A stretch of 64,000 bases of DNA from a virus: IMG/VR virus record IMGVR_UViG_3300030104_003441, positions 1-64,000 of that record. One strand, 5' to 3'. The notes below the pieces were generated by a model. It saw only the letters and a program-made list of their open reading frames with translations. It was not told the origin of the DNA and did not search any database. Every line of letters begins with the position of its first letter. The first letter of the stretch is position 1. This document shows, in pieces, positions 15,034 to 64,000 of this stretch. The position numbers were made by a program, and so were the translations under genes.

Positions 15034-16077
15034 TTAGAAGATTACATAGTTTGCTCCACACTTAAAGTTGTACCACTCTCTATTCCAGTACTTATAATAT
15101 CTACCCTCAAGAAATACACCTAAGTGTTTGTTAAATCTGTGTCCAAATATTAAACCGCCTGAGTAATCAAGCCATTGTCCGTTTACTGTATTGTGATACA
15201 TATACTCACCTCCAGTGTCGTAATGGTAGGGTAAAATATTTCCCCATGAGTGGAACCAGAAGTCGTCTGTAAAGTGATAGAAGTCGAAGCCGGCAACCAC
15301 CGAGTAATTCCATTGACGAGAGAGTTCATTTCTTTTTCTAGCAGTGTATTCAGATAAGATGCTAGGGATAGTGACCGCCTCCCAGACTTCAGTGTTTGTT
15401 GCAACGACTGTTCCGTCAGGAGCGAGGTACTCGCCTGTAGTAAGGTTGTGTGAATATCCTTCTTCAATTGCGAGGTAAGTATAGTGTATATCTCCTGTTT
15501 CCAGCTTCCACTCTTCAAGTGGATCATACCCGTATGGTTCTGAGATACGCTGCGCGACACCTGCGTGCAAAGAAAACTTGTTACCGAGCTTAAGCCGAAA
15601 TCGTTGCGAAGCTTCAAAGTATTCGATGTCTGCAAACCCGTCTTCAACGTATTCAACCTTACCCATAACTTTGTCTCCGATGTAACGAAAAAAGTGGTGC
15701 TGATTAAAAAACTCTTTACCTTGCTGTCTTTCGTATGTAACTTCTCCAAGAAACTCTATGCCGTTACGTTTACCTATATTAGCGTCAGCAGACCAAGATG
15801 TCTCTGATCCATCATAAAAAGCATTAGCTCTGTTTTCATAACCAAACCTAGCGATCTTACGTACACCCATAGATAAACTGTAGTCAAACGGCGTAGCTAT
15901 AGTCTCTTGAGTTAATCCACCTGTAACAGAGTATGTAGTTTGATCTGACACAGAGTTACCTCCATTTACAGCCGCGTAAAACGTGGAAAACTTAAACGCT
16001 TTCTTTAGTTCTTGAGCTTGTACTATAGTACAGCTAAATAGTAAGGTTAATAATAAACTTAATCGTGGTAGTAACAT
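15034..16077 (-). CDS. predicted outer-membrane beta-barrel protein, 347 aa
   Basis: Signal peptide at 1-22 (LLLTLLFSCTIVQAQ), then alternating aromatic/polar strands throughout (for example FFRYIGDKVMGKVEYVEDGFADIEYF, read in parts) and a last strand ending in GANYVIF. A terminal Phe is the standard Bam recognition signal. Eight to twelve strands are plausible for this length. A phage gene for a host outer-membrane protein is unusual; it might mask the receptor (superinfection exclusion) or help another secreted phage product. It overlaps the end of the giant virion gene by 19 nt, so it is certainly part of the phage transcript. Confidence 0.75.
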   Translation of the reverse strand: MLLPRLSLLLTLLFSCTIVQAQELKKAFKFSTFYAAVNGGNSVSDQTTYSVTGGLTQETIATPFDYSLSMGVRKIARFGYENRANAFYDGSETSWSADANIGKRNGIEFLGEVTYERQQGKEFFNQHHFFRYIGDKVMGKVEYVEDGFADIEYFEASQRFRLKLGNKFSLHAGVAQRISEPYGYDPLEEWKLETGDIHYTYLAIEEGYSHNLTTGEYLAPDGTVVATNTEVWEAVTIPSILSEYTARKRNELSRQWNYSVVAGFDFYHFTDDFWFHSWGNILPYHYDTGGEYMYHNTVNGQWLDYSGGLIFGHRFNKHLGVFLEGRYYKYWNREWYNFKCGANYVIF

Positions 16078-22000: not shown

Positions 22001-25000
22001 GGCTACTTGGCTCAGCTATAACATCTTGCAAATGCTCAAGCACTTTTAAACTATTCTTACCTCTGTTAATGCTTTCAATATAGTTACCAAAGAACTCTAC
22101 TATGTCTGCCTCCTTTGTAAAATTATATTCTTGGTTTAATTCTTTTCCTACAGTTTTCTTAACTAAATCTCTAAGTTCACCAAACGCATTTGCTTTTCTT
22201 AAATCTCTTAAGTTTTCTGGCTTAGATAAATGCTCAGCTATATGGCTAAATAGCTCCCAGTCTTTTGCTCTAGCGGCTTCCCATGGTGTTTTTTCTACAT
22301 CAAACTGACGGTTCTGCTCTACTATCTGATCGTAAAGATTTTCAAAAAGCGGTACGTTTCCATCTGGATCTACACCAAGTTTAATTTTTTTAGCCACACC
22401 CATAAGTTGTTGCACAAAATCGCTTTTAAATCTAGCATTAGTACCAAATAGTATCTCCATACCTGAGTGACCTAGCTCGTGCGGAGCATACCCTTCTGCA
22501 AATTCTGCCACGTTATATCTTACTACTACTGTCGAGCCTTTAACTTTTTTACCCATTAAGCCGACGTCCATTACATTACCGTCTTTGTCTTTATAGTAAA
22601 CCTCTGCGTTTCTTTTCTCCATGGGTTTCATCAAGATCTCGTAGTTAGCAGCGCCTGATCCACTAGGCTTTTTATTAACCTCTCTTACCTTACCAGTTCT
22701 TTTATCTCGTATTACATACGTGTCAGGGCTACCATATTCTACTTCAACGTTAGCGCCTTTTTCTTTATAGTGCTTAACTTGCTCTAAAGTTCTAGTCTTT
22801 AATCTTGAAGCGCCTATAGTTCTATCCATTAAATCTAAACCGTCTTCGCTTCTTCTTAATTGGCTAGCTAGGCTTTGAATCAACTGCGAGTAGTCTGCAA
22901 AATATTCCTTAGTCATAGGCTTTCCGTCCTTTGTCTTCGTACGGTATGCCCTCATTCCAGGCCTTGCGACTATTACAAAGTCTTTTGTTTGGTAGTTCTT
23001 TTTACTAGCAACTTCAAAGTCTTTACCAGTTTTTTTGTTGAAGATAACGTAGTTGTCTCGTGTTTCAAAGATAGCGTCTTCTGCTTCTTTTTTAGCTTCT
23101 CTTAAACTTTCTATTGTACCGGCTTTTTTATAAGCAGCTTTGTGCGTAAAACCAAAAGCGGTACCCATAGCCCAGTTGTTAGCCCAGCGTTGTAAGTTAC
23201 TTGATCCATCGCCATAATGCTCTTCTATCATGCCGCTAAACTCTTCGTAACCCATTAAGTCGTCGGTTAACATAAGTCCAAGCTCTCCAACCTCACTACC
23301 AACCGTGAAGCTTAGAGGTCCTTTAAATGCTAAGTTATATATTTTTTCTAGCCTTGGAGCGTTGTTAGCCATCATAGCACCAAATCTAGTTTTTTGAAAG
23401 GCTGGACTAAACGTGCTCGCGTTTATAGTGCCTAGCATCGGTGATAAAATCTGTGTTGCACCACCAAAGCCAAAACCAGTAGCAAACGACTCTAGTCTTG
23501 CGCCTGAAGAAGAAGGTAAAGAAGCAAACTTTGCACCTTCAATAGTAGACTCAGTTAGAAAAACTCCAACTTTAGAAGCTAAGCTAGCGCCTTTAGTTGC
23601 CTCATAACCACCCTGAGCTAAATACACTGATAAAGGTAATTTAGCGTTGTTTGCCGCTGCTGTTGCTTGAGCTACCGTTAAAGCTTGTTTTCCGTTCCAA
23701 TATCTCTTAGCTTTATGCGCTTTGAGTATCATGTCTAAGCTTTTAGTACCACCAGCAAAAATTTTAGCTGTTCTTAACGAAGCTGTAGCCTTGTTTGCTA
23801 TGGCAAACTCAACAAGTATACCTGCGCTAGAAGCAAGTCCCTCACCAAATTGTTCTCCAAAACTTCGATCAATGTAAGCTTTTTGATCTCCTCTAATTTC
23901 AATACCAGCGTTACTTAAAGTAGTAGTGTACTCGTCTATAACTTCTCTTTCTGTATAGTTGCCATAACCAAAAGCCGCGCCTTCAGGATTAAACGCTTGC
24001 CCTATACTATCTATAAAAGGCAAGCTCATAATAGCTAATTTTGCATAGTTTTGAGCGTTATTCTTTTCTATAGATATAACATCTTCATTTAAAAGATATA
24101 TTCTTTTTAATGCCTCTTGTTGTATTTTAAGGTCTCGCATTTGCTGCCTTAATATATTTCTTTCTGCAACTCCATCTGCGTCAAAAACGTGATGAAAGTT
24201 TGATACACCTCCGCTTGTCTCCATTCCAAGTGGGTTTGTACCGCTTTTCATAAAGGATTCCTCACTATCCATCTTGTTGGACAAAATCAACGCCTCGCGC
24301 AGAGTCATATCTTTATTAGTTGTACCAACTTGTGTAGACTCACCAGTCGCAAAGTTTGACTCAAAATAAATATCTGGTCGATAAAACTCAAAACTTTGAA
24401 CTTCGTTTAACTTTGCGTTTAAAACAGCTAGAGCCTTAGCATTTTTTTCATAAGCCTCTCTAGCCATATCTCTTGGCGTTAAGTTTGTATTACTTGCAAA
24501 CTCTGCTCTTAATTCATTTTCTTGCTGCTGTATTTCCCCACTAACGTCTTCAGTATTTTCAGTAACAAACGGGTTGTCTTTACCAACTGGTCTAATTAAT
24601 TGCCCTGTAGTTAAATCAAATAGCATCTCATATTCCCCACCTTCTTCTCTAACTTTCTGTATGATCTGGTCTCTTCTGCTTATATAAGATTGAATCTCAG
24701 CATAACGCAGGTTTTCTTGATTATCTAATTGGTAGTTAATACTAGCTAACTCTCTCATCAAAGGATCTTCAATAGTATTAATCTGAGAAGCCGTGTATGT
24801 TTTAAAGAATTGTTCTGCGTCTTTTATGCTTACGGTTTTTCCTTCTTTAGCTTGATAACCACGCACAATTCCACCTGGCCTATTCCCCACTCCTCTGTCT
24901 AAAGTTGGATCATACTCACCAACAGCCATGCCAGGAACAAGCGTAGTAAGCGTTATGTCTCCCTGTAGTAATCTTTCATCAAAGCCAGCCGCTAAATTGT

Positions 25001-26618
25001 CTAAACCTTTGTTCTTGTAACCCTCAATTTCGGCGTGATACCTTTCTTTAATAATGTGATCTATATCTGAATCAGTTAAAGCAGGGTAAGCTTTTCTAAC
25101 TTTTTGACCAAACAACGTCCAAGCATCTTCAGTACCTAAACGACCCTTTACTTCTTTAAGAGCATCGTCTATTGTAATAATTCCGGCTCTTATATCTTCA
25201 ACGCGTTTTGGATCGTCCATAAAAGCATGGAAACCGCTTCCGCCTTCTCCAAAATAATTGTCTAGCCAAGTTCTTGAAAAAGATTCTTTTTGCTCTACCC
25301 ACTCCTCTCCTTTTTCATCGGTTAAAGTAGGGTCTTCCTCTAAAAACGTAAGTAACTCTTTAGTAAATTCTGTGCTACTTCTAAGATTAAAATTCTTCGA
25401 TACACCATGAGAATTAGTTATAGTTATGTTATTAACACTAAGATACCTACCACTGCCATCAGAGTCTTCTCCAATACCTTCTTCTACTATGTAATCATTA
25501 GGAAGATACGTTGTAAGCTCCTTTGCAATCTTCTCTTCAGACCACCAACCACCAATATTTGTGTTAATAATTTCAGTTACAACTTCTCTAGCTTTTGTCT
25601 TTTCTTTTGTAGCTACAGCTTTTTGATATACTTTAAGAGCTTCGTTATACGGCTCTACAACCTCTTGATTATACAACTCCTCTACCTTATTAGACCACTG
25701 CTCTTGCATGTCCTCTTGCGCCTTTTGAATCTCTTCGGCTGTTGCGTTGGGTGATATTACAGATGTATCAAGTTCGATTTTATTTAATCGATCACGGTTT
25801 TCAGTATACCAATTGTTGATACCCTGCATTTCAGGTTTTTCAGCGTTGTTAGCTCTAACAAGATTTTCTTCAGAACTATAACCTTGCTCTTGGCCTTGTC
25901 TCATTTGAGCCAAAAGAGCCTCTTTTTCTTTATCTTCTTCTGACAGCTCTTCTTCTACCGGCTCCTCTCCATACATCATTAAATCCGTAATCCTCTGCTC
26001 TTCTTCAGATATTGCGTCCGGCGTAGGGCCACTTAAACGTTTATCTTCTGCTTCGCGCAAAAGCTTCCCCAGCTCCTCCATTCTTTGATGTTCAGGACTA
26101 GATGTGTCTATACCAAACGAAGCGAATAAACCATACGGGTCGTTTTCATTTGTATACTCAGGAGTTTGCGGGGTTGTTGGCTCTGGTACATCTAGGCTTA
26201 AGTTAAGTAATGATTGATCAAAATCAATAACCCCAGTAGTGTCTGGCATATCGTAGGAAACCTCAGGCATCTGTATGTTTTGTGAAACATCAAAAGTACT
26301 CTTTACCTGCGTTCCAAAAAGCCCTGTCGTTGCGCCGTCTTCTTCAGTTGCACTAGAGCGAGTAACACCTACGTTAAGCACAGTGCTACCTATATTACGC
26401 TGTCCTGCGTTACGTTGTGAAGTAGGTTGTGATTCAGGTAAACCAATAGAATAATCTCTTTGGAAATCACTAAAACTATTAGTATACAAATTGCTTTGTA
26501 CAGCAAGTTTATTGTATAGTTCTCTAGCACCTTCTGGTGAACCATAGTCTATTTTAAACTGCTCAAACGAGTTGGTGTAAAGCTCTTGTTGAAATAACTT
26601 TGTATATAATTCTTGCAT
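16059..26618 (-). CDS. giant internal virion protein, 3519 aa
   Basis: The true start is the ATG at 26618, overlapping the upstream stop (ATGA). The N-terminus has two copies of LYTNSF-x2-F-x2-DY (13-25 and 44-56). A zinc-protease-like site HELGH lies at 1380-1384. A HAD-type phosphatase block starts at D2575 (DFDETL) with later VLTAR and VDD motifs. A short module of the form (R/N)KRTGK ... NKKPS occurs around 1190, 1300 and 2210. The C-terminus ends in two zinc-knuckle-like units (C-x5-6-GK-x-C ... C-x2-H). Position, just after two putative core proteins and in the slot of T7 gp16, suggests a virion protein injected with the DNA. No lytic transglycosylase motif is evident. Confidence 0.8.
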   Translation of the reverse strand: MQELYTKLFQQELYTNSFEQFKIDYGSPEGARELYNKLAVQSNLYTNSFSDFQRDYSIGLPESQPTSQRNAGQRNIGSTVLNVGVTRSSATEEDGATTGLFGTQVKSTFDVSQNIQMPEVSYDMPDTTGVIDFDQSLLNLSLDVPEPTTPQTPEYTNENDPYGLFASFGIDTSSPEHQRMEELGKLLREAEDKRLSGPTPDAISEEEQRITDLMMYGEEPVEEELSEEDKEKEALLAQMRQGQEQGYSSEENLVRANNAEKPEMQGINNWYTENRDRLNKIELDTSVISPNATAEEIQKAQEDMQEQWSNKVEELYNQEVVEPYNEALKVYQKAVATKEKTKAREVVTEIINTNIGGWWSEEKIAKELTTYLPNDYIVEEGIGEDSDGSGRYLSVNNITITNSHGVSKNFNLRSSTEFTKELLTFLEEDPTLTDEKGEEWVEQKESFSRTWLDNYFGEGGSGFHAFMDDPKRVEDIRAGIITIDDALKEVKGRLGTEDAWTLFGQKVRKAYPALTDSDIDHIIKERYHAEIEGYKNKGLDNLAAGFDERLLQGDITLTTLVPGMAVGEYDPTLDRGVGNRPGGIVRGYQAKEGKTVSIKDAEQFFKTYTASQINTIEDPLMRELASINYQLDNQENLRYAEIQSYISRRDQIIQKVREEGGEYEMLFDLTTGQLIRPVGKDNPFVTENTEDVSGEIQQQENELRAEFASNTNLTPRDMAREAYEKNAKALAVLNAKLNEVQSFEFYRPDIYFESNFATGESTQVGTTNKDMTLREALILSNKMDSEESFMKSGTNPLGMETSGGVSNFHHVFDADGVAERNILRQQMRDLKIQQEALKRIYLLNEDVISIEKNNAQNYAKLAIMSLPFIDSIGQAFNPEGAAFGYGNYTEREVIDEYTTTLSNAGIEIRGDQKAYIDRSFGEQFGEGLASSAGILVEFAIANKATASLRTAKIFAGGTKSLDMILKAHKAKRYWNGKQALTVAQATAAANNAKLPLSVYLAQGGYEATKGASLASKVGVFLTESTIEGAKFASLPSSSGARLESFATGFGFGGATQILSPMLGTINASTFSPAFQKTRFGAMMANNAPRLEKIYNLAFKGPLSFTVGSEVGELGLMLTDDLMGYEEFSGMIEEHYGDGSSNLQRWANNWAMGTAFGFTHKAAYKKAGTIESLREAKKEAEDAIFETRDNYVIFNKKTGKDFEVASKKNYQTKDFVIVARPGMRAYRTKTKDGKPMTKEYFADYSQLIQSLASQLRRSEDGLDLMDRTIGASRLKTRTLEQVKHYKEKGANVEVEYGSPDTYVIRDKRTGKVREVNKKPSGSGAANYEILMKPMEKRNAEVYYKDKDGNVMDVGLMGKKVKGSTVVVRYNVAEFAEGYAPHELGHSGMEILFGTNARFKSDFVQQLMGVAKKIKLGVDPDGNVPLFENLYDQIVEQNRQFDVEKTPWEAARAKDWELFSHIAEHLSKPENLRDLRKANAFGELRDLVKKTVGKELNQEYNFTKEADIVEFFGNYIESINRGKNSLKVLEHLQDVIAEPSSPEAREMERLYNEQGIHFTETSRLASESKRRRDLIKDNVDLFKNKPEGYEAKMQENIQAIRSIDDLLVIDRPAQNESDNARKERINRIHAGHKDIMFSKDLVGRDAQRQGEAIDAIISSYRGKTIAVAKSQGRFETPTFENMSKSEREDFAWDITRPELLKHLDAFNRKFRETDGKEGIENDDLDAYLNSYIVNKLGTALKRPGIEKTEFTGTTTDLKPGQEPVYTPSEMKLNNKTDARLRIDIRERLTDNAPEGRESQIKKGIKEHGKFVKDYIETTSDIPTSYRDLKNIKTPKEIVDKVFGKNTAERIETIGRTLDIAKKSALPEGTLSTRTGNVELEGKAIGVANTLQTINIAKKGQPANYKEVLYGTPKRIAEFTSKETGRLTAEADPTGQGNTPKELLKLSKAETLKRLGIKEVELGGGEVRYDIDNTLAKEYASEPGSKNEKAIARNIEGIRKNYMEEVVRGMTYQAAMENLPAVSQKLGIATEILANQISAGKARLASSRLELKDFTEQMEFLDQIESKEFKDLYEKAVTDGEEKAFEHAMITHFANNPIENISKADIKKIATQLEAQFTFTTMTPKRAIEASMKAIAYPKSLQSIEAKYGFEALETKNLYDSIEGIREGQAAFTMEGGIIETLTRVKGKGAFEALIKEGISKGAGLGTYRSHREYEVRNKRTGKVTTTNKKPSKSEIENPENPLEILSVTLIKTAEQNMIEGNTEFRSDNRFALFETAAKAQEAADGVYARLESEGVKLKDYEGSSRADSDGVGKKNKVLEGVTGKDGLWDLEARDKFDNIGEENKKALFDGKGKSSVIETIKDMYTNGDITYRQVRQIVEGQGGPMEGLIKKSASLAVLPEMSRADIEAKYGKNWVLEHTTPAQNVKARIYDYILSKGAAPQAKALELTLRDYHTTLIPESLDTMVNKILKTDLPSFHVPGMDPIESRYYMANHKSPFDLSLVNYRNGKVYSKTGLSVAEVSKRGAMLRESYAEMISPRLAEKNLEPTRMLEQMENMKKAVANSRNPRAKKKGMSTFDFDETLIVDGENFVVATKDGKRVEISSEQWPIEGPKYAEQGYEFDFSDFANVRGGADGPLLQKMKNQISKYGSNNVFVLTARQQASAEPIHSWLRSKGIDIPLENITGLGKSEGAAKAQWMLEKFAEGYNDMYFVDDALPNVEAVKEVLGQLDIKSNVQQARRLASQDMNLEFNKMIERKTGIGYEKIFSGAKGKMLGKRRYTQSIVVPGAQDFMGLMQNFMGKGKRGDADRAFFEENLVKPFARANREMNESRQRASEDLKALYKDIPSVKRKLNKRLPGSAFTFDQAIRTYLWEKNGFDIPELSMRDLKSMTDVINKDVDLRNFAEQLNMIGKGTWVEPSANWIGETIVSDLFNLNNKARRAEYLEEWQQNIDTIFTPTNLNKIEATQGSKFREALEDSLYRMRTGSNRPTGANRLTNQFNNWINGSVGATMFLNMRSAMLQTISATNYINWSFNNPVAAAKAFGNQKQYWKDFSMLWNSPMLKQRRAGLEYNVQEAELAAAMAGQKNPAKAAVAWLIKKGFTPTQIADSFAICAGGSTYYRNKIRELVKQGKTKQQAEEQAFLEFQELTETNQQSSRADLISQQQASGLGRTILAWSNTPMQYMRIQEKAARDIVNGRGDLKTNMSKIAYYGVIQSAIFSALQNALFRFGLEEEDENNEADNKDLSASIDRTVNTVIDSQLRGTGVLGAALSAIRNTVLEFEKQEAKAYDDSFLSSPDHSRTVLQLTSFSPVISSKLRKLYSAGNEWNYNREAISEMGFDIDNPAIHAGANVIEALSNLPVARLVQKVDNIQGMLDNNNETWQRVALLMGYPKWQLGIEDTEVEEAKQRGRDKIKAIKDAEREIEKQQKEIVKADEELAEVEDNMLDQDEEREQGAEEVQCAAVSRSGKRCSNMALPGENFCTIHQQVAQQEDEVQCSHIKKDGKQCKMKTKNKSGKCYYHD

Positions 26619-27817
26619 CAATCTTGCTTGTTAAGTGATCCAGGTCCTAATCTGTCTTTCGCAGCCGATGTTGATCTATTGTCATCAAAAGTACTATTAA
26701 CGTTAGTTGTTACATAGCCCATAACAATCTTTCTGAAAAGCTCAACGTCTTTTTGAATCATATTAATAACCTTATTCCTATCCTCACCTTTAAGGGACAC
26801 AATTAAGGCTTTATCTTCAGCATCGATATTGCCATCGTTATTAACATCAAACGGAGGTAATTGATCTTTAGCTGTACCAATTAAAATATCTGTAAACAAA
26901 GCGTCTGACTCCTGCAATATCTGTCTAAAGCTTTTGCCGTTGTTCATAAACACAGCTCCGCTATTCATCATTCTATCAGCGTTATTATCATTAATGTTTG
27001 TGTTGACCCAGTCGCTAGCTTCGTTAATTAACTCTTTACGCTTGTATGTAACAACAGGGTAATCCTCGCCGGCCGCGTTTTCTGGTGCCTCAGGCATGAT
27101 CGAAGCTGTTGCGGAAGTACGCTTCATAAGGTCTCCAAATGCTTTAGCTTCATTAGCTGGTTTAGTAGCCATTTTAATAAACTCAGTTACATCTTTTTTA
27201 TATATCTGCTGTGGTGGATCGCCATACTCAAAGTACGCTTCATTATCGTCATCGTACATTAACGTAGTGTTTTTTTGGCTTATTAACTCCCTCATATTGT
27301 TGAGCATCTCAGTGCCTCCCGGTATATTTTCTAGCATTTCTAAATCAAGACCAGTAGGCATAGCGTTTCCGTCAGCGCCTACAGGGTTCATTACGTCTTC
27401 TAGTATAGCAACTTGCTCTTTCATACCTTGTATGGACGCGTTACGCTCACCCATTTCCTTAAGCATAGTCTCTTGCGTTTTTTTATCTGCGGCTAAAAAC
27501 GCTTCGCGTTGATCTGTTTCAAAAGCTTTAGCTTGGTCAAACGTGCTAGTTGAATAAGCACTTTGCCTAGAACCAAGGTTGTCTATGGCATCGTTAAAGC
27601 TTTCTACAGCTAACTCATGCCTTTCTTCTTCTGCTTGTCTAGCTTCTTCTGCCGCTGCCAACCCGGCTCCTACTTGCTGACCTGCTGCTGTAAGAGCGTC
27701 GCCGGCCATAAAGTCTCCTTCTTTACGCTGCCCAGCCTCGGCCGCGCCTTTTATACGATCTAACGTGTCTGCACGTAGTCTATAATCTAGTGATCTGCTT
27801 GCTGCTTCTTTTGACAT
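26618..27817 (-). CDS. putative internal virion protein with EF-hand-like loop, 399 aa
   Basis: An Ala/Glu-rich, helical protein in the slot of T7 gp15. Near residue 324 it carries DVNNDGNIDAEDKAL, a textbook calcium loop (D-x-N-x-D-G-x-I-D-x2-D) like those in dockerins and EF hands. The N-terminal 120 residues look like coiled coil. It abuts the giant protein gene (ATGA overlap) and the preceding gene (1-nt overlap). Calcium binding might switch its assembly or release, but only the loop itself is seen. Confidence 0.7.
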   Translation of the reverse strand: MSKEAASRSLDYRLRADTLDRIKGAAEAGQRKEGDFMAGDALTAAGQQVGAGLAAAEEARQAEEERHELAVESFNDAIDNLGSRQSAYSTSTFDQAKAFETDQREAFLAADKKTQETMLKEMGERNASIQGMKEQVAILEDVMNPVGADGNAMPTGLDLEMLENIPGGTEMLNNMRELISQKNTTLMYDDDNEAYFEYGDPPQQIYKKDVTEFIKMATKPANEAKAFGDLMKRTSATASIMPEAPENAAGEDYPVVTYKRKELINEASDWVNTNINDNNADRMMNSGAVFMNNGKSFRQILQESDALFTDILIGTAKDQLPPFDVNNDGNIDAEDKALIVSLKGEDRNKVINMIQKDVELFRKIVMGYVTTNVNSTFDDNRSTSAAKDRLGPGSLNKQD

Positions 27818-56597: not shown

Positions 56598-56620
56598 GCT
56601 TAATCTGCTATTTACAAAGT

Positions 56621-56666
56621 GTGACATAAGCCTACTACTAGGATACTATTAACTAGCTAGTGTCAC
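56621..56666. repeat. 46-bp palindrome-bounded repeat, copy 1
   Basis: Bounded by GTGACA ... TGTCAC with AGC/GCT also paired inside, so it can form a cruciform or hairpin. A related 44-bp copy lies in opposite orientation at 63642..63685; the two share GTGACATAAGCCT exactly and a similar middle (TACTATTA). The pair brackets the early gene block. Confidence 0.75.
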
Positions 56667-56702
56667 TAAAAAAACATATTGTAAATATAGGGGCTATGCG
56701 TT

Positions 56703-56731
56703 CCCCCCTCCCCCCGCCCCCTCCCCTCCCC
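56703..56731. other. C-rich tract (G-quadruplex-forming on the minus strand)
   Basis: 29 nt made of five C runs of 6, 6, 5, 4 and 4 broken by single T or G. The complement meets the usual G-quadruplex rule with more than four runs of at least four G. It is a sharp contrast to the AT-rich surroundings and lies in the divergent control region. Confidence 0.85.
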
Positions 56732-56791
56732 AGGAAAAGTCAAACTCTCACAGGGCCCCACCTACTTGTTAAACTCATTATTGCTCGTTTT

Positions 56792-56829
56792 TACAATGTA
56801 TCTACGACAGTATTTAGATAATAAATATA
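56792..56829 (+). promoter_or_regulatory. early promoter-like element 1
   Basis: TACAATGTATCTACGA, then exactly 9 nt, then GATAATAAATA (proposed +1 G at 56817). It is the most upstream copy and differs from the others in the left part. No gene starts right after it; the next copy follows about 100 nt on, so the two may act in tandem. Confidence 0.55.
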
Positions 56830-56892
56830 GAAAAACAAACTAAAAAACTCTACTACATTTTTAAAATCGTTTACAAAACTTCTAAAACATTT

Positions 56893-56930
56893 TACAAAAT
56901 AAATACGAGAATACTTAGATAATAAATATG
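56893..56930 (+). promoter_or_regulatory. early promoter-like element 2
   Basis: TACAAAATAAATACGA, 9 nt, GATAATAAATATG (proposed +1 G at 56918). The last ATG is followed at once by TAA, and the gene start proper is the ATG at 56939. It would drive the first early gene. Confidence 0.65.
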
Positions 56931-56938
56931 TAAATCAA

Positions 56939-57127
56939 ATGAACATGAAAACTCTTATAATTAAAACAATAGCTAACAACTTTAGAAAAAAGCTACCAAT
57001 CGCTCGCAACTTAAAAGTTCAACACATTAACTACATGTATGAATATAACTACATTAAACTATTCAAATCATTAGTTGACTCATTCAAACTAGAACCTCAA
57101 CACTTCAATAATAGATTTATCAAATGA
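56939..57127 (+). CDS. hypothetical early protein, 62 aa
   Basis: Basic, Asn/Lys/Tyr-rich, likely helical (KTLIIKTIANNFRKKLPIARN, read in parts). First gene of the early block, right after promoter element 2. It overlaps the next small frame by 4 nt (ATGA). Function unknown; early host-takeover proteins are often of this size. Confidence 0.55.
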   Translation: MNMKTLIIKTIANNFRKKLPIARNLKVQHINYMYEYNYIKLFKSLVDSFKLEPQHFNNRFIK

Positions 57128-57189
57128 AACAATTACTCGAATCAATACTCATAATTGTAATAATACTACTGTGTTGTTGTGTGTACTAA
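57124..57189 (+). CDS. membrane micropeptide, 21 aa
   Basis: Reads MKQLLESILIIVIILLCCCVY: one hydrophobic helix ending in three Cys. It starts in an ATGA overlap with the gene before it, which supports translation. It is too short to assign a role. Confidence 0.4.
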   Translation: MKQLLESILIIVIILLCCCVY

Positions 57190-57261
57190 ATAATTGTACA
57201 CTTACAGAAGTGGCGGAATACTACTAACGTGAAATTGTATACTAAACAAACAATACTCTTT

Positions 57262-57299
57262 TACAAACTAAATACGTAAGCATTTAGATAATAATAATA
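57262..57299 (+). promoter_or_regulatory. early promoter-like element 3
   Basis: TACAAACTAAATACGT, 9 nt, GATAATAATAATA (proposed +1 G at 57287). The downstream gene starts at 57331, leaving a longer leader than the other copies. It lies in the 141-nt gap after the first early genes. Confidence 0.7.
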
Positions 57300-57330
57300 A
57301 CTAAAACAAAAACATTAAATACTTTATATC

Positions 57331-57570
57331 ATGTCAAATAATACATTAACATCAAAGCGTTTCGTTCTACGTCAATCACTTGTTGGAAAGAACACTAACA
57401 TTACAGTAACATTCAAAAATGGTAACACAGTTACTTACTCACACGACAAAGCATTCACTATAATGCAAAAAGCACTTGAAGCAATGCCATGTTGGGCAAA
57501 GTACAAGTCGTACACTGCTAGTAACAATATACCAAAAGTGTTGCGTGAAACTGAAGCAGTAGTAGCATAA
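57331..57570 (+). CDS. hypothetical early protein, 79 aa
   Basis: Alpha/beta protein with a basic N-terminus and the strand pair NITVTFKNGNTVTYSHDKA, then a helix (FTIMQKALEAM) and a Trp-Lys-Tyr stretch. It lies between promoter elements 3 and 4. I do not recognise it. The start at 57331 is the only ATG that keeps the strand pair. Confidence 0.65.
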   Translation: MSNNTLTSKRFVLRQSLVGKNTNITVTFKNGNTVTYSHDKAFTIMQKALEAMPCWAKYKSYTASNNIPKVLRETEAVVA

Positions 57571-57635
57571 CTACTCTTCAACATAAAGTCCAGTTAGTTT
57601 AGTGTTTACTGGTAAATCAAATATGAACACTAACA

Positions 57636-57678
57636 TAGTAGTCATGGTGCCGAGTTGTGTTCGATTCACAAGCTACTA
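57636..57678 (+). ncRNA. tRNA-like minihelix (acceptor and T-arm only)
   Basis: TAGTAGT (57636-57642) pairs with GCTACTA (57672-57678), 7 bp with one G-U. Inside, TTGTG and CACAA form a 5-bp T-stem around a canonical 7-nt T-loop TTCGATT. Only 12 nt separate the 5' strand from the T-arm, so there is no D- or anticodon arm. An alternative 5' partner TAGTAGC lies at 57560-57566. Confidence 0.4.
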
Positions 57679-57716
57679 CAAACTAAATACGATAACTTAC
57701 AGATAATAATACTATG
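57677..57716 (+). promoter_or_regulatory. early promoter-like element 4
   Basis: ACAAACTAAATACGA, 9 nt, GATAATAATACTATG (proposed +1 G at 57702); the ATG is the start of the 101-aa gene, only 13 nt from the proposed start site. It abuts a tRNA-like minihelix on its left. Confidence 0.7.
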
Positions 57717-58019
57717 ATATTCGATAAGAAACTACGAGCTGAAGTGAAAATACAGCGTGATGCAGTGCATCAATTACTCAAGCACCACTTGCCAAAGTAC
57801 GAGCTAACACTAATCGGTGACAGTGAAATACAACTCACATGGCACTCAAATCCTCACTGTCTACGTGAAACATTACTTACGTGTAGTATGTATGGCGAGT
57901 GGCAATACGAAGAGCACCAATGGGAATGCTTCGATAACTATCATCACTCAACAGACTTAAAGGTTGACTACACGTCACCTGCTAACGAAGTTGTTAATGC
58001 ACTAATGAAACTACTATGA
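57714..58019 (+). CDS. hypothetical early protein, 101 aa
   Basis: Mixed alpha/beta with many His and Trp (HLPKYELTLIGDSEIQLTWHSNPHC, read in parts; YGEWQYEEHQWECF). The density of His/Cys suggests possible metal binding, but no standard spacing is seen. Start fixed by promoter element 4. Overlaps the next membrane peptide by 4 nt. Confidence 0.7.
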   Translation: MIFDKKLRAEVKIQRDAVHQLLKHHLPKYELTLIGDSEIQLTWHSNPHCLRETLLTCSMYGEWQYEEHQWECFDNYHHSTDLKVDYTSPANEVVNALMKLL

Positions 58020-58141
58020 GATTACTATCAACTATCGCGCTGTGCTTAGTATTTAACGCAGAGATAAATCAAGGTTGGCAAGGCTGGGTAAACTCTACTT
58101 GGGATATTGTCACTATAATTGAAACTAGAAAAACTATATAA
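58016..58141 (+). CDS. small exported or membrane peptide, 41 aa
   Basis: Frame from ATG 58016 to TAA 58139-58141. The N-terminus (MRLLSTIALCLVFNA) is a signal-like hydrophobic segment; the rest is short and Trp-rich (NQGWQGWVNSTWD). ATGA overlap with the gene before it supports it. Function unknown. Confidence 0.5.
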   Translation: MRLLSTIALCLVFNAEINQGWQGWVNSTWDIVTIIETRKTI

Positions 58142-58142
58142 T

Positions 58143-58271
58143 ATGAGAAAATTTAATCACCTTGTAATCGCAGAGATTACCATGAAAGCATTACTTGCTT
58201 TAAATATTGGTACGTTTGGTATCGCTATAATAATGTTACTTGTTAACGTAGTATCAGACTTCACAAACTAA
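58143..58271 (+). CDS. single-TM peptide, 42 aa
   Basis: Frame from ATG 58143 to TAA 58269-58271. Residues 14-37 form one membrane helix (MKALLALNIGTFGIAIIMLL). The last residues (FTN) are coded by promoter element 5. Follows the previous peptide by one nucleotide. Function unknown. Confidence 0.5.
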   Translation: MRKFNHLVIAEITMKALLALNIGTFGIAIIMLLVNVVSDFTN

Positions 58272-58301
58272 TTACGATAAGTAATAGATAATAATAATAT
58301 G
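58262..58301 (+). promoter_or_regulatory. early promoter-like element 5
   Basis: CACAAACTAATTACGA, 9 nt, GATAATAATAATATG (proposed +1 G at 58287). Its left part also codes the last residues (FTN, stop) of the membrane peptide at 58143..58271. The closing ATG starts the 56-aa gene. Confidence 0.7.
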
Positions 58302-58469
58302 AAGACAATAAAATTTCTAAAAGACAAAAAAATACAAATAGGCAAACGTGTGTTTCGCCCATACTGTATCAGCGACTTACCAAACAACTTCGGTTGTATT
58401 AACTACGGCGAGTCAGATGGTGTAACCGAATGGTTCGGCTACAAAGGTTTCACTTATATACCAGAATAA
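58299..58469 (+). CDS. hypothetical early protein, 56 aa
   Basis: Frame from the ATG of promoter element 5 to TAA 58467-58469. Basic N-terminus (MKTIKFLKDKKIQIGKRVFR), then Cys-containing turns (PYCISD, FGCINYGES) and an aromatic C-terminus (WFGYKGFTYIPE). Promoter placement makes the start certain. Function unknown. Confidence 0.65.
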   Translation: MKTIKFLKDKKIQIGKRVFRPYCISDLPNNFGCINYGESDGVTEWFGYKGFTYIPE

Positions 58470-58471
58470 TC

Positions 58472-58678
58472 ATGTATCTAACTATTCTATCTTACGACAT
58501 TCTAAGAGGTAACGAAGTAATCACATATGAATTACCGAGTTATGCAGCGAAATTCCAATGCGAAGACATGGAAGAGTATATCTCAGTCACACTTGGTTTC
58601 AATACAAACAACATTGACTGGCAAACTCACGAGGAATTACCTCAACTTGTTGAACTACATAATCAAGACTACGCATGA
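58472..58678 (+). CDS. hypothetical early protein, 68 aa
   Basis: Start set at ATG 58472 (MYLTILSYDILRG), two nucleotides after the previous stop; a longer frame from 58430 would overlap that gene. Acidic, alpha/beta (YAAKFQCEDMEEYISVTLGF). Overlaps the next gene by 4 nt. No recognised family. Confidence 0.65.
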   Translation: MYLTILSYDILRGNEVITYELPSYAAKFQCEDMEEYISVTLGFNTNNIDWQTHEELPQLVELHNQDYA

Positions 58679-59178
58679 ATCAAGCTAAAAAATACAGAAA
58701 ATACTACGAAGCTCTCGACTTGATCGGTTGCAAGCACGTGTCAACACCACGTCAAATCAAGAACGGTACACGCGTATTCCGCCTACCTTTCAAAGACGCT
58801 TGGAATCAAGACATAGACTTTGCTACATACGAGTCAGGTTATGTACGTAGATTAGTAAAGCTCGGTTACTGTCCTTGTTATCAAATCAACAAGAGAAAGC
58901 CAGAAACTCGCCTAATTGAAGTGAAAAGCGGTCCACACAAAGGCTATTACTACAAAAGACGCTCAAACGAACGTGTGTTAATTGAAGGTAATGGCGATCG
59001 ACTAGAGTACTTATTCAACTATATTGTACGTAATTACTTCAAAGCTAAACCAAAGTACAATAGAACTATTGACCTAGAGTGGTTAAACTTCTGTGCAAAG
59101 TGGCAATACGGCGAGTTTGGCTTCAACACTTGCACTGAGCAACAGCAAAATGAAATACTAAAATCTTTACAATCATGA
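58675..59178 (+). CDS. hypothetical early protein, 167 aa
   Basis: Basic and Tyr-rich, with two halves: GTRVFRLPFKDAWNQDIDFATYESGYVRRLV, read in parts, with CPC, then KSGPHKGYYYKRRSNERVLIE. No catalytic signature is clear to me. ATGA overlaps with both neighbours. The basic surface suggests nucleic-acid contact. Confidence 0.7.
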   Translation: MNQAKKYRKYYEALDLIGCKHVSTPRQIKNGTRVFRLPFKDAWNQDIDFATYESGYVRRLVKLGYCPCYQINKRKPETRLIEVKSGPHKGYYYKRRSNERVLIEGNGDRLEYLFNYIVRNYFKAKPKYNRTIDLEWLNFCAKWQYGEFGFNTCTEQQQNEILKSLQS

Positions 59179-59294
59179 ATTACTGTCCATGGGATACTGC
59201 ATTTAAACTATGCAAAGGCGCTTATACGCGCGAAGAAATCGACGAAATGTCGCTATGTGAAATTAACGAAATAATATTTGACCAACATGACTAG
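59175..59294 (+). CDS. hypothetical early peptide, 39 aa
   Basis: Frame from ATG 59175 (ATGA overlap) to TAG 59292-59294: MNYCPWDTAFKLCKGAYTREE followed by a helical acidic end. Three Cys. It bridges two larger genes with overlaps on both sides, which supports translation. Function unknown. Confidence 0.55.
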   Translation: MNYCPWDTAFKLCKGAYTREEIDEMSLCEINEIIFDQHD

Positions 59295-59631
59295 TTACGA
59301 ACAAAGAGCATATGATGCGCTCGCAATGAAGCTAACCGAAGCAGGTTACGCGTATGAGAATACAAGTTGGAGTAATGATGCAACTGCATCTATATCAGTA
59401 ACTTGCGTGCGTGTAGTTCAATCAGAAGATGAGATTGACAAAGTAATGAAGTATGAGTTTCAAATCTATATACCTAACTGTGATTACTTCGACCCAGATA
59501 ACGAGTATTTTAATACTTACGCACTCACTGACGAGATGACTGGTCACACATTTGATTTCGATCGAGCAGACGAAGTTGTAGAGCATATTCAAGATTGTGT
59601 CGATGGTAATTCGGTTGTTTTTACAAACTAA
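59287..59631 (+). CDS. hypothetical early protein, 114 aa
   Basis: An in-frame ATG at 59278 is also possible; 59287 gives a short overlap with the previous stop. Acidic alpha/beta protein (EQRAYDALAMKLTEAGYAYEN, read in parts; YEFQIYIPNCDYFDPDNEYF). The last three residues and stop (FTN) come from promoter element 6. No family recognised. Confidence 0.65.
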   Translation: MTSYEQRAYDALAMKLTEAGYAYENTSWSNDATASISVTCVRVVQSEDEIDKVMKYEFQIYIPNCDYFDPDNEYFNTYALTDEMTGHTFDFDRADEVVEHIQDCVDGNSVVFTN

Positions 59632-59661
59632 ATACGATTACTTTTAGATAATAATAATATG
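59622..59661 (+). promoter_or_regulatory. early promoter-like element 6
   Basis: TACAAACTAAATACGA, 9 nt, GATAATAATAATATG (proposed +1 G at 59647). Its left part again codes a terminal FTN and stop, for the gene ending at 59631. The ATG starts the zinc-ribbon gene. Confidence 0.72.
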
Positions 59662-59871
59662 AAATGTCCAAAATGCAATAACACAATACCAACTGGCCGC
59701 GTGCGCCTTGGTTACAAAGTATGTGTCAACTGTTCTACTGTAGAGCGTTATGGTTGTGCACCGCTTATAAACCACAAGACAGGCAACTCAATACAAATTA
59801 TGTCCAGCAGTGATGCTGCTCGTATTGCCAAGCTTACAAGGCGTCGCGGTTATGGTACAATGCTAAAATAA
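59659..59871 (+). CDS. zinc-ribbon protein, 70 aa
   Basis: Start fixed by promoter element 6. C3-x2-C6 (MKCPKC) and C22-x2-C25 (VCVNC) form a classic zinc ribbon, followed by a basic C-terminus (RIAKLTRRRGYGTMLK). Such small ribbons often bind host RNA polymerase or nucleic acid in early phage takeover. The function here is inferred from the fold alone. Confidence 0.75.
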   Translation: MKCPKCNNTIPTGRVRLGYKVCVNCSTVERYGCAPLINHKTGNSIQIMSSSDAARIAKLTRRRGYGTMLK

Positions 59872-59872
59872 T

Positions 59873-60229
59873 ATGAATAAAGAAAATTTACAAACAAAGT
59901 TAGAAGCGCTAGAGGCTAACGTACAAGCAAAACAAAATGAATTAGGTGTTGCTATGTCAGAAGCTCAAATGGCGCGAGAAGAACTAGCTAATGCAGGTAA
60001 GCCTGAATTATCAGCAGACAAGGCTTCAGATCTAGTGGATTTGTTACAAGGTATGTTTCACGATATACTAAATGACTGTGACACTAGCGACCTAAGCCCA
60101 GAGTTCAGTATAGGCTACGATAACACTATCGAACTCGACTGTCTTGACATGAGCAGCATCGAAGTACATAGCTGTGATATCGAGTCTGTACTAGAGCAGA
60201 TATTCAATATAATGCCTGACAATAGCTAG
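59873..60229 (+). CDS. coiled-coil acidic early protein, 118 aa
   Basis: Residues 1-40 form a coiled coil (LQTKLEALEANVQAKQNELGVAM, read in parts); the rest is acidic with Cys-Asp pairs (DCDTSDLSP, LDCLDMSS, VHSCDIESVLE). Starts 1 nt after the zinc-ribbon stop. An acidic dimer could mimic nucleic acid, but nothing specific is seen. Confidence 0.65.
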   Translation: MNKENLQTKLEALEANVQAKQNELGVAMSEAQMAREELANAGKPELSADKASDLVDLLQGMFHDILNDCDTSDLSPEFSIGYDNTIELDCLDMSSIEVHSCDIESVLEQIFNIMPDNS

Positions 60230-60490
60230 TTAAGCACGACGGTGCAAGGTGTAGTAGAGCATATGTTGAAAATATTTCAAACTACTACATAACGGGTCAA
60301 GGTAGTCTACGCTACCGTAATGCCACCTAAAGTAGGACACGGGTAATTACCGTATTAAAGGCAATGACTACGCGTTGATCGCAGGTAGACCTGACGAAGG
60401 TATCGCTGGTTAGGGTAACCGCCAGGACCATTACTCAGCAGCAATTCCGCTGTAAGAGCATGGGTACAAAGCCGGGTCAACGCTTTATAT
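60230..60490 (+). ncRNA. structured non-coding region, likely RNA
   Basis: No frame is convincing here, but foldable elements are dense: TGTAGTAG (60250-60257) with CTACTACA (60282-60289) enclosing TTGAAA-ATA-TTTCAA, GGTAG/CTACC near 60300, GGTAATTACC, CAGG-TAGA-CCTG, GGTTA-GGG-TAACC inside CTGG/CCAG, and CAGC/GCTG. Short motifs GGGTCAA, TGGTTAGGGT and CAATTCCGC occur here and recur in the same order in 60470..60560, as if partly duplicated. Confidence 0.5.
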
Positions 60491-60581
60491 AAGAGTAACG
60501 GTTGGTTAGGGTCTAGTGCAGCTGATCTTAAGGTCAAGCACAATAAGAAACAATTCCGCAGGTTCGATTCCTGCTACTCTT
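60491..60581 (+). ncRNA. tRNA-like RNA with perfect acceptor and T-arm
   Basis: AAGAGTA (60491-60497) pairs perfectly with TACTCTT (60575-60581). GCAGG-TTCGATT-CCTGC (60558-60574) is a canonical T-arm placed immediately before the 3' acceptor strand. The 60 nt between do not give a normal D- or anticodon arm; instead GTGC ... GCAC encloses TGATC-TTAA-GGTCA. The 91-nt length equals a class II tRNA, and TTAA could be read as a Leu(TAA)-type loop, but no 5+7+5 anticodon arm forms. No CCA is encoded. Candidates: divergent tRNA, tRNA mimic, or the relic of a tRNA 3' end. Confidence 0.55.
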
Positions 60582-60620
60582 ACAAACTAAACACGAATAC
60601 TAACGGATAATATTAACATG
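60581..60620 (+). promoter_or_regulatory. early promoter-like element 7
   Basis: TACAAACTAAACACGA, 9 nt, GATAATATTAACATG (proposed +1 G at 60606). It begins at the last base of the tRNA-like acceptor stem (60575-60581), so RNA and promoter are joined. The ATG starts the 62-aa gene. Confidence 0.68.
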
Positions 60621-60806
60621 AAAGACTATATTACACAAGAGCTGTCAATGCTCGATCGTAGCATCGTAGCTACACCACACACCAAAGAAGACCTAGAGTC
60701 TTTTGCTAAAGCAAACAATGGTTGTAGCGATATACTACTTATGCAAATGGCAATGCAATACGGCTATAAGCTAGCATTAGAAAACTTAGAAACAGAATTA
60801 ATATGA
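60618..60806 (+). CDS. hypothetical early protein, 62 aa
   Basis: Start fixed by promoter element 7. Helical and mixed-charge (ITQELSMLDRSIVATPHTKEDLESF, read in parts; LLMQMAMQYGYKLALENLE). Overlaps the next gene by 4 nt. No recognised family. Confidence 0.65.
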   Translation: MKDYITQELSMLDRSIVATPHTKEDLESFAKANNGCSDILLMQMAMQYGYKLALENLETELI

Positions 60807-61039
60807 GACAAACCTTATACCAAAGACTAACACCAGAGTGCAAAGAAGCTCTAGATCATAACTCTAAGCGTTGGCATGGCGCAACTAACAAAATAGTTAG
60901 CGTGCTATCGTCACATAAATTCTGGTCTGATTTAAGAGTAGGCGACGTACACTTTGTTGTACAGTTCGTAGATCTACCATTTGGAAAAATAACAAGCGGA
61001 ACATATGCGTTCGGCGAAAACATTATTAAAGATGACTGA
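60803..61039 (+). CDS. hypothetical early protein, 78 aa
   Basis: N-terminal helix (LYQRLTPECKEALDHNSKRW) and a beta C-terminal half (SDLRVGDVHFVVQFVDLPFG). ATGA start overlap. The beta part resembles small SH3-like domains, though this is only an impression. Function unknown. Confidence 0.65.
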   Translation: MRQTLYQRLTPECKEALDHNSKRWHGATNKIVSVLSSHKFWSDLRVGDVHFVVQFVDLPFGKITSGTYAFGENIIKDD

Positions 61040-61310
61040 AAAAGAAAAAGCACTAGAAATGTTACCTAATTGGTTTCAAGGTGAAGTATATGAATTAGGC
61101 GATGAAGTTCGTAATCCATTTAGTGGTGAAACGTGCTTACTTGACGCAGCAGAGTTAAGTATGTACGACCACATTAAAGGTTTAGAACTAGCAATAATAA
61201 TGAACATACCTATATTTGACTTAGGTGATAAATATATTGACATTATAGACAAAGGTAAAGATTGGTTTTTGATTAAAAACCCTAACGCATACATGATACT
61301 AATAGACTAA
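61032..61310 (+). CDS. hypothetical early protein, 92 aa
   Basis: Start set at ATG 61032 (MTEKEKALEMLPNWFQ); the longer frame from 61005 would lie inside the previous gene. Contains GEVYELGDEVRNPFSGETC and an aromatic/acidic C-terminus (YIDIIDKGKDWFLIKNP). It overlaps the next peptide by 1 nt. Function unknown. Confidence 0.65.
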   Translation: MTEKEKALEMLPNWFQGEVYELGDEVRNPFSGETCLLDAAELSMYDHIKGLELAIIMNIPIFDLGDKYIDIIDKGKDWFLIKNPNAYMILID

Positions 61311-61417
61311 TGAAGACACTAATATGTATATTATTTTTTTACGTAGTTTTAGGCGCGTATTTTGAGTATCAAAACAGACAAGAAAACGAAGACGAAATAG
61401 AAAGAGATTCATCATGA
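61310..61417 (+). CDS. single-TM peptide, 35 aa
   Basis: Frame from ATG 61310 to TGA 61415-61417: hydrophobic N-terminus (MKTLICILFFYVVLGAYF) followed by a charged tail (QNRQENEDEIERDSS). TAATG/ATGA overlaps on both sides. Resembles small phage membrane proteins that block other phages, but this is not demonstrable here. Confidence 0.5.
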   Translation: MKTLICILFFYVVLGAYFEYQNRQENEDEIERDSS

Positions 61418-61764
61418 GTACAAGAGCAACAATAAGGTTCGCAACACGCGAAGAAGGTGTACCTTTTGACAAACACCCAGAGCAATGGCACGCACAGTTC
61501 TACAACCATTGGGACGGTTATCCTGAAGGATTAGGTGTAGAGATCGCAGAGTCATTTACTAATTATCGTAAAATAGAAGGCTGGGAAGTAGAAGCCCTTG
61601 ATATTGTACACGGCGATGTAGAATACATATACTACATATGGCAGTGTCACGGTAAATCAGAGCCTTGGATTAGTATATTTAATGTTGACTGCGAGTGTGA
61701 ATTTGTAGGTACACCAGATATGTTACTAAAGAAATACAAACTAAATACGAACGATGACGGATAA
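61414..61764 (+). CDS. conserved phage protein, 116 aa
   Basis: Starts MSTRATIRFA and contains AQFYNHWDGYPEGLGVEIAE, a motif (HWDGYP) that recurs in small proteins of many tailed phages. Later YIYYIWQCHGKSEPWISIFNVDC, read in parts. The role is not known to me. Its end overlaps promoter element 8. Confidence 0.75.
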   Translation: MSTRATIRFATREEGVPFDKHPEQWHAQFYNHWDGYPEGLGVEIAESFTNYRKIEGWEVEALDIVHGDVEYIYYIWQCHGKSEPWISIFNVDCECEFVGTPDMLLKKYKLNTNDDG

Positions 61765-61774
61765 TAATAATATG
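61735..61774 (+). promoter_or_regulatory. early promoter-like element 8
   Basis: TACAAACTAAATACGA, 9 nt, GATAATAATAATATG (proposed +1 G at 61760). The left part overlaps the end of the preceding gene; the ATG decides the start of the DNA ligase at 61772 over the in-frame ATG at 61754. Confidence 0.7.
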
Positions 61775-62617
61775 ATGAGACATAAACCAATGCTGGCGTA
61801 TCCAGTCAGCGATAAACCAATTGACTACAGCGATCCTGTATTCATGCAACCAAAGCTTGACGGCGTACGCTGCCTTATACAGTGTGACAAAAGCAAGGTA
61901 ACCGCATGGTCACGCACGGGTAAACAGTGGCTTAACATCGATCACATCTTGTTTAACTTGCAACCTTTTTTCAAGTTTCACCCAAATGTAGTACTTGATG
62001 GCGAGCTATATAACCACGACTTACGTGATGATTTCGAGCAAATTATCTCTTGCGTGCGTAAGACTAAACCAACAGATCAACACCGCTTTGATTCAGCTAG
62101 ACTTGTGCAGTTTCACTGCTACGATATAGTTGGCAAAGGTATGCATCTTCCATATGCTAAACGCGCAGAGTGGATCGGCGAAAATGTCATGCCTAACCAC
62201 TGCGTCAAACGCGTGCAAGCTTATGTTGTTGGCTGTGAAGATCAAGCTAAGGCTTATCACCAGAAAAACCTAGACAAAGGTTACGAAGGCTCTATACTAC
62301 GTCTTAACACTGAGTACCAAGAAAAGCGTTCTCATAGCTTGCGTAAGTTCAAAGACTTCCACGACACCGAAGCAGAGATTATTGGTTGGGTTGAAGGCAA
62401 AGGCAAGCGTGTAGGCACGATCGGTAAGTTCTTGGCTCGTGATGCTGATGGCATCGAGTTCGGTATGCCTGTTATGGATAACTTCAAGTACCTACAGGCT
62501 AACTTCAAAGCTATGCAAGGCTGGGTTGGCAAAACTGCTACGTTTACTTACTTCGAGCGTACTAAAGCTAACAGCTATCGTCATCCACTGTTCAAATGTA
62601 TACGCGACTACGAATGA
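61772..62617 (+). CDS. ATP-dependent DNA ligase, 281 aa
   Basis: Small ligase of the phage type. Nucleotidyltransferase motifs in order: motif I PKLDGVR with catalytic K28, motif III LDGELY, motif IIIa FHCYDIV, motif IV EGSILR and motif V LRKFKDFHDTEAEI, followed by an OB-fold domain (GKGKRVGTIGKFLA to GKTATFTYFERT). It would seal nicks in replicating phage DNA. Start fixed by promoter element 8 at the ATG of 61772. About the size of T7 ligase minus its larger inserts. Confidence 0.92.
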   Translation: MMRHKPMLAYPVSDKPIDYSDPVFMQPKLDGVRCLIQCDKSKVTAWSRTGKQWLNIDHILFNLQPFFKFHPNVVLDGELYNHDLRDDFEQIISCVRKTKPTDQHRFDSARLVQFHCYDIVGKGMHLPYAKRAEWIGENVMPNHCVKRVQAYVVGCEDQAKAYHQKNLDKGYEGSILRLNTEYQEKRSHSLRKFKDFHDTEAEIIGWVEGKGKRVGTIGKFLARDADGIEFGMPVMDNFKYLQANFKAMQGWVGKTATFTYFERTKANSYRHPLFKCIRDYE

Positions 62618-63671: not shown

Positions 63672-63685
63672 CAGGCTTATGTCAC
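63642..63685. repeat. 44-bp palindrome-bounded repeat, copy 2
   Basis: GTGACAATAGCC at the left pairs with GGCTTATGTCAC at the right (10 of 12 pairs). It is the inverted counterpart of 56621..56666. It spans the end of the 42-aa frame and the start of the last gene. Confidence 0.7.
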
Positions 63686-64000
63686 AGTATGAACGCAACT
63701 TAGAGCTGTTAAACAAGAGACGCATCGTATATAGAAGAGATCCTATAACAGATACACCTGATATAGAAAATGATATGTATATGTTCTTTGAAAACGGCAC
63801 ACATCAATGCTATGATCTATTTAAGAGCACAGCAAAGATAACCACCTACAAGAGTCTTAAGTGGCACTTGTTAGTGCTGTGGTATCTAAATCCAGGTATG
63901 GATCAAGATGAATTTATGGATATAGCTTTTGAAATATCTGCTAAGACAAATGGTTTTGTTAGTTTTAACATGCCGCCTAACTTATTAGAAAAAATAGTAT
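63679..64000 (+). CDS. hypothetical protein, N-terminal part (runs off the window)
   Basis: Open from ATG 63679 to the window end, 107 residues so far: MSQYERNLELLNKRRIVYRRD, then NDMYMFFENGTHQCYDLFKSTAKI, read in parts, and KWHLLVLWYLNPGMDQDEFMDIAFEI, read in parts. Aromatic and alpha-helical. The ATG lies inside repeat copy 2. Family not recognised. Confidence 0.75.
   Translation, partial: MSQYERNLELLNKRRIVYRRDPITDTPDIENDMYMFFENGTHQCYDLFKSTAKITTYKSLKWHLLVLWYLNPGMDQDEFMDIAFEISAKTNGFVSFNMPPNLLEKIV

Follow-up and report, generated by a model that had tools for sequence, protein, structure and literature searches.

The stretch analysed here, referred to below as the window, comprises positions 1 to 64,000 of the IMG/VR virus record IMGVR_UViG_3300030104_003441. 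About 70 nucleotides (nt) of the contig start are repeated at the contig end, and the 66,902-base genome is therefore complete, with only 2.9 kb of DNA beyond the window. Toward the right end of the window, plus-strand open reading frames (ORFs) form a block in which small genes without a known function precede an ATP-dependent DNA ligase gene (56939..62617), and this block appears to be served by eight copies of a repeated element, which we interpret as a promoter. The initial annotation, which likened these repeats to promoters of the T7 family, was right about their number and spacing. All eight copies lie on the plus strand, with the T of TACA at positions 56792, 56893, 57262, 57677, 58262, 59622, 60581, and 61735, and exactly 9 nt separate TACGA (or its variant) from GATAATA in each of them. 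Seven of the eight deviate from AAACTAAATACGA-N9-GATAATA by no more than one mismatch, for a chance expectation of 0.02 in dinucleotide shuffles. The copy at 56792 is weaker (TACAATGTATCTACGA-N9-GATAATA, 25.0 bits), yet it is recovered by a position matrix built from relatives, which finds exactly these eight copies in the complete genome, with no further hit above 8 bits.

The same arrangement is found in many other viral sequences. A scan of IMG/VR in which the spacer was left free, from 5 to 13 bases, returned 180 distinct exact-match sites, all of them with a 9-nt spacer, and the fixed spacing is therefore not an artefact of the search. In those loci, GATAATA preceded by 12 or more matches out of 15 occurs 411 times at a spacing of 9, once at 8, and once at 10. 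The position matrix, which comprises 459 sites and about 35 bits, shows the blocks TACA(A), AATACGA, N9, and GATAATA; the nine spacer bases before the G of GATAATA carry 0.06 to 0.56 bits each, and the residues A-11 and T-7 of GATAATA are each 99% conserved. Each long genome contains 4 to 13 copies, and in that search these all share one strand; the reversed pattern, used as a control, gave zero sites. In the literature searched, the motif string was found only as primer-like strings in unrelated papers.

A second signature, located downstream of the motif, points to the RNA start. Taking the A of ACAAAC as position 0, GATAATA occupies positions 24-30, and position 36, 12 nt past the G of GATAATA, was not used in finding or scoring the sites. 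Position 36 is a purine at 210 of 210 sites and at all 391 sites from loci sampled through the sigma factor gene described below, and position 35 is mostly a pyrimidine. The same holds for sites without a nearby ATG, where position 36 is a purine in 101 of 101 cases (p = 5e-19) and is preceded by a pyrimidine (p = 4e-11). An ATG begins exactly at position 36 at 58 of the 210 sites, about ten times as often as at the following positions (about 3-8 sites each), and a second ATG peak at position 34 consists mostly of ATGTAA-like runs, which are not gene starts. The sigma homologue of locus L118 likewise has its start codon at position 36, as read by eye from the sequence. The bacterial +1 is classically found seven nt after the -10 hexamer; with GATAAT as this hexamer, a pyrimidine-purine start lies 7 nt downstream and the key residues A-11 and T-7 are present. 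This start-site signature supports the promoter reading of the repeats, and the view that GATAATA behaves as a -10 element, with a predicted RNA start 12 nt past its G. The +1 had initially been placed on this G itself, which sits inside the invariant GATAATA, 12 nt upstream of the pyrimidine-purine signature.

With this numbering, the predicted +1 of copy 1 (56792..56823), the weakest, is 56829, and this copy can precede DNA without a clear gene. For copy 2 (56893..56924), the predicted +1 at 56930 lies 9 nt before the ATG at 56939, and for copy 3 (57262..57293), the predicted +1 at 57299 leaves a leader of 32 nt to the ATG at 57331. The predicted +1 is the A of the start codon for copies 4 (57677..57708, +1 at 57714), 5 (58262..58293, +1 at 58299), 6 (59622..59653, +1 at 59659), and 7 (60581..60612, +1 at 60618). 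For copy 8 (61735..61766), it is 61772, the A of an in-frame downstream ATG in the DNA ligase gene. The program-called ligase ORF (61754-62617) starts at an ATG that falls within copy 8 itself, and the ATG at 61772 is the likelier start of the gene. Leaderless mRNAs are expected in many cases, the predicted +1 coinciding with the first base of the start codon in five of the eight copies, more specifically copies 4 to 8; since these have their ATG at position 36, a later RNA start would cut off their start codons. The earlier statement that the repeats usually end in an ATG applies to these five copies, where the ATG begins at position 36, and does not apply to the other three. A tRNA-like stretch with a perfect T arm (60507-60582), missed by ARAGORN and scoring only 17 bits with the Rfam tRNA model, is located right ahead of copy 7, its 3' end coinciding with the start of the promoter. 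Such tRNA-like ends also precede motif copies in loci L089, L102, L111, and L306.

Just outside the window, on the plus arm at genome positions 64299-65051 (L088:4300-5055), we observe a gene for a sigma-70-family factor of 251 residues, identified by profile and fold matches. Of 29 homologues of this protein, 25 match Sigma70_r2 and 25 match Sigma70_r4, profile matches to solved sigma factors start from 4.5e-11, and the AlphaFold model (predicted local distance difference test, pLDDT, of 80) gives a fold match to sigma subunits with an E value of 2e-5. Every one of the 20 motif-bearing records that are 60 kb or longer has the gene, with a broken frame in one; seven shorter motif-bearing records (48-52 kb) are without it, and these are linear contigs that may be fragments. 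When loci were sampled by sigma alone, 46 of the 47 with at least 7 kb upstream carried the motif, and 387 of 391 motif sites were on the strand of the sigma gene, mostly within 10 kb upstream of it; as a comparison, 829 kb of terminase-region loci hold 3 motif sites. The cultured or named relatives identified by terminase (MW202828, elemoF, phi18:3, phi40:1, and Gundel_1) have neither sigma nor motif, and no match to the sigma factor was found among 50,697 deposited phage records.

The start of the sigma gene is overlapped by another plus-strand gene (63679..64000, its 5' part, in the window and continuing to about 64302), which encodes a protein of 207 residues with a C-terminal helix-turn-helix (HTH). 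In most genomes, this gene either overlaps the start of sigma or lies directly against it, and it was found in 25 of 25 motif-bearing genomes tested versus 0 of 6 controls. The model of the HTH protein is of high confidence, with a pLDDT of 87; Pfam HTH matches are weak only, and Foldseek gave no significant PDB match for this model. The HTH protein is a candidate reader of TACAA.

The motif copies of a given genome share bases that differ from phage to phage, in the manner of dialects. The mutual information between genome and base reaches z values of 17.6, 10, 7.7, 7.7, and 6.1 at positions 23, -1, 13, 31, and 10, respectively, and most spacer positions have z near 1. The spacers are no more similar within a genome than between genomes, and thus the copies are not recent duplications, which argues for a lineage-specific reader. 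We searched for this reader in 65 genomes forming 47 clusters, using 215 sigma columns. For motif position 13, where TACGA varies, the best-linked sigma column is residue 229: non-G bases make up 3% with Q229 and 32% with E229. For motif position 10, residue 230 ranks first or close to first (z 18-19). Both residues belong to the recognition helix of region 4.2, residue 229 aligning with the Q of RQIEAK in RpoD. At positions 13 and 10, the comparison proteins Erf and exonuclease reach at most z 6.2 and 8.2. A link of dialect position -1 to a reader was considered and rejected, as the top columns are scattered across sigma and HTH.

We propose that the repeats are promoters for the host core RNA polymerase carrying the phage-encoded sigma-70-family factor, a reading to which we assign a probability of roughly 77%. 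The motif, its spacing, the start signature, the association with sigma and HTH, the dialects, and the lack of a detectable T7-type polymerase (see below) are all read from the sequence. Several observations weigh against it. Sigma, HTH, and motif could simply be markers of one phage clade. The covariation involves at most five independent changes, for which a tree-aware independent-pair test is underpowered to reach significance, and scattered associations are seen for the HTH protein too, with z as high as 12.5 for a residue outside its HTH. The target of region 4.2 normally lies about 17 bp from the -10 element; TACGA is only 9 bp from it, half the normal distance. The block found at roughly the canonical distance is TACAA, for which no link to region 4.2 was seen. 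Either this compact geometry is true, or the covariation partly reflects ancestry, with region 4 on TACAA and the HTH protein on TACGA. Finally, if the sigma factor is essential, its first round of synthesis needs another promoter, and no convincing host-type promoter was found for it.

The T7-type reading of the initial annotation, in which a single-subunit phage RNA polymerase would start at the G of GATAATA, rests on the AATACGA-N9-G register, which indeed coincides with that of the T7 promoter; moreover, about 35 bits with a rigid spacing resemble polymerase-specific phage promoters. The resemblance stops there, the T7 consensus scoring -13 bits in register on the motif matrix against +37 bits when the consensus of the motif itself is scored over these 28 positions. 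T7 promoters are conserved from -17 through +6, whereas the motif is unconserved from -9 to -1 and has an extra upstream TACAA block. The polymerase gene, which had been expected outside the window, was not detected: RNA_pol (PF00940) matches in 0 of 37 motif-bearing records, the complete genome included (T7 positive control, 9.9e-110), and that genome holds a sigma factor gene instead. A very divergent polymerase might escape such a search. Neither the 3520-residue protein nor other large proteins gave a PHROG polymerase match, and the DxDxD catalytic motif of a crAss-like or multisubunit-type virion RNA polymerase is not in the 3520- and 2064-residue virion proteins, the two examined. With a start signature lying 12 nt downstream of the proposed G, we regard a T7-type polymerase as very improbable. 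It is hardly credible, too, that the motif is a translation-initiation or RNA-level element within transcripts, even if it often ends at an ATG and its A-rich context suits initiation in Bacteroidetes. In most relatives, the start codon lies 10-40 nt or more downstream, which argues that the motif is not a translation signal; the conserved blocks are upstream of any possible ribosome site, and a copy such as copy 1 can stand before DNA without a clear gene.

Two other explanations assign the motif to host factors. The host holoenzyme with its primary sigma might be activated by the HTH protein bound to the TACAA/TACGA box, in the way of T4 MotA, with the phage sigma serving other genes. The HTH gene is as tightly associated with the motif as the sigma gene, the 16-nt box at -37 to -22 is where such activators bind, and it resembles a direct repeat of TACAA/TACGA, 11 bp apart, with a shuffle p of about 0.04-0.05 only. 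Nevertheless, the covariation is strongest in the helix of sigma region 4.2 and not in the HTH recognition helix, and no other promoter class for sigma appears on the structural arm: in six genomes, no second promoter-like motif was enriched there (6600-56600, minus strand), the search returning only start-codon context and A/T-rich runs. GATAATA also has only A-11 and T-7 in common with the host -7 box TAnnTTTG, which is absent from the motif, where GATAATA is invariant instead (PMC6847099). We therefore consider this explanation unlikely. Host -33/-7 promoters were examined as a further candidate and discarded, since they are scattered and not enriched near these genes. Alternatively, the phages might exploit the promoter of a host alternative sigma, as isolated perfect copies on large contigs of flavobacterial metagenome-assembled genomes (MAGs) could suggest. 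Yet there are 1-2 copies per 2-Mb host genome, compared to 4-13 per 66-kb phage, the exact motif was met at 7 loci in 84,980 genomes, some of these being phage contigs, and the dialects differ from phage to phage, all of which makes such an origin very doubtful.

Single motif copies also stand on large host contigs, L211, L212, and L213 (flavobacterial MAG) and L312. In L212, L213, and L312, they belong to one shared repeated locus before a small secreted-protein ORF. The copies on host contigs may be due to chance, may be relics, or may mark host genes switched on by infection. A 4.3-kb contig labelled as an Ilumatobacteraceae MAG (L208) looks misbinned, because it carries the sigma, HTH, ligase, exonuclease, and Erf genes of this phage group. 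In the sigma-less and motif-less sister phage MW202828 (L245/L246, 44500-49000), seven copies of a perfect palindrome, GTGTCGTTAACGACAC, are located before early-arm genes.

For promoters used by host core polymerase with the phage sigma, we infer binding of the motif by sigma, a division of labour between sigma and the HTH protein, and the timing. Region 2 of sigma would read the -10 element GATAATA, with G at -12, A at -11, and T at -7, and TACGA, located nine bases ahead of GATAATA, would be the target of region 4.2. For TACAA (-37 to -33), a second contact is probable, possibly through the HTH protein of the overlapping gene. The promoters would fire the small-gene block where the rightward arm toward the HTH-sigma pair begins, and some relatives would have the sigma gene itself under such a promoter too, so the circuit is probably self-reinforcing. 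In its most specific form, this scheme has two-protein initiation by HTH and sigma, whose genes overlap, a region 4 element rigidly set 9 bp from the -10 element, RNA starting on AUG, and a largely leaderless arm in hosts that mostly have leaders on their mRNAs; we hold this combination only tentatively and rather doubt it. If true, putative elements of sigma 4 and sigma 2 spaced at half the normal length would be at odds with the way a holoenzyme is usually arranged.

The plus arm begins at 56.8 kb and continues across the contig end up to 6.6 kb; it includes small genes and genes for ligase, the HTH protein, the sigma factor, Erf, exonuclease, primase-helicase, thymidylate synthase, MazG, and ribonucleotide reductase. 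The DNA ligase at the end of the promoter-served block matches phrog_114 (2e-70). The minus arm (about 6.6-56.6 kb) contains the structural genes, including terminase, portal, virion proteins, GroEL, and the 3520-residue protein. This last protein (window 16059-26621) has HELGH metallopeptidase-like and FDFDETL HAD-like motifs and matches no PHROG family. In the divergent intergenic region between the arms, at about 56610-56740, an imperfect inverted repeat (GTGACA..AGCCT ... AGGCTA.TGTCA type) is shared by all of the six genomes that were compared, and most of them have a C-rich tract next to it; the repeat is possibly an origin, a terminator, or an operator. The terminase is 63% identical to that of MW202828, an unclassified spring phage, 45% to that of the Flavobacterium Elemovirus, and at most 37% to those of Cellulophaga and Tenacibaculum phages. 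The host is probably a flavobacterium, given the Por secretion tail on one virion-arm protein and the related contigs in flavobacterial bins.

The phage group defined by these features is large, uncultured, marine, and flavobacterial, with at least 349 sigma-bearing stretches, and the 35-bit motif can be used for recognising its members in metagenomes. The proposed reading makes predictions on where exactly RNA begins, on early or middle mRNAs that lack a leader, and on a regulatory circuit, and the lineage dialects would be natural variants of sigma-DNA recognition.

In T4 middle promoters, a MotA box lies upstream of a -10-like element at a near-fixed distance. The present motif differs from these in its -10 element, GATAATA, in its box spacing of 9, and in that the phage has its own sigma. 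Compared to the primary-sigma promoters of Bacteroidetes (-33 TTTG / -7 TAnnTTTG), the presumed host RNA polymerase core is the same, whereas the motif sequence does not match and the mRNAs would often be without a leader; in F. johnsoniae, 87% of mRNAs have a leader of more than 10 nt (PMC6847099). The closest parallels are gp36 of phiEco32 and gp47 of phage 7-11, sigma factors with dedicated middle/late promoters, whose elements are tAATGTAtA and GTAAtg-16-aCTA (PMC8948821). In these podoviruses, as proposed here, a sigma-like factor redirects the host core RNA polymerase, with start sites 6-9 nt from the element. By description, they differ from the present phages, which have TACAA and TACGA-9-GATAATA, an arm oriented toward sigma, an overlapping HTH gene, and predicted leaderless starts. 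A phage sigma with its own promoters is thus of a kind already known, and it is the sequence, the spacing, the overlapping HTH partner, and the predicted leaderless starts that differ here.

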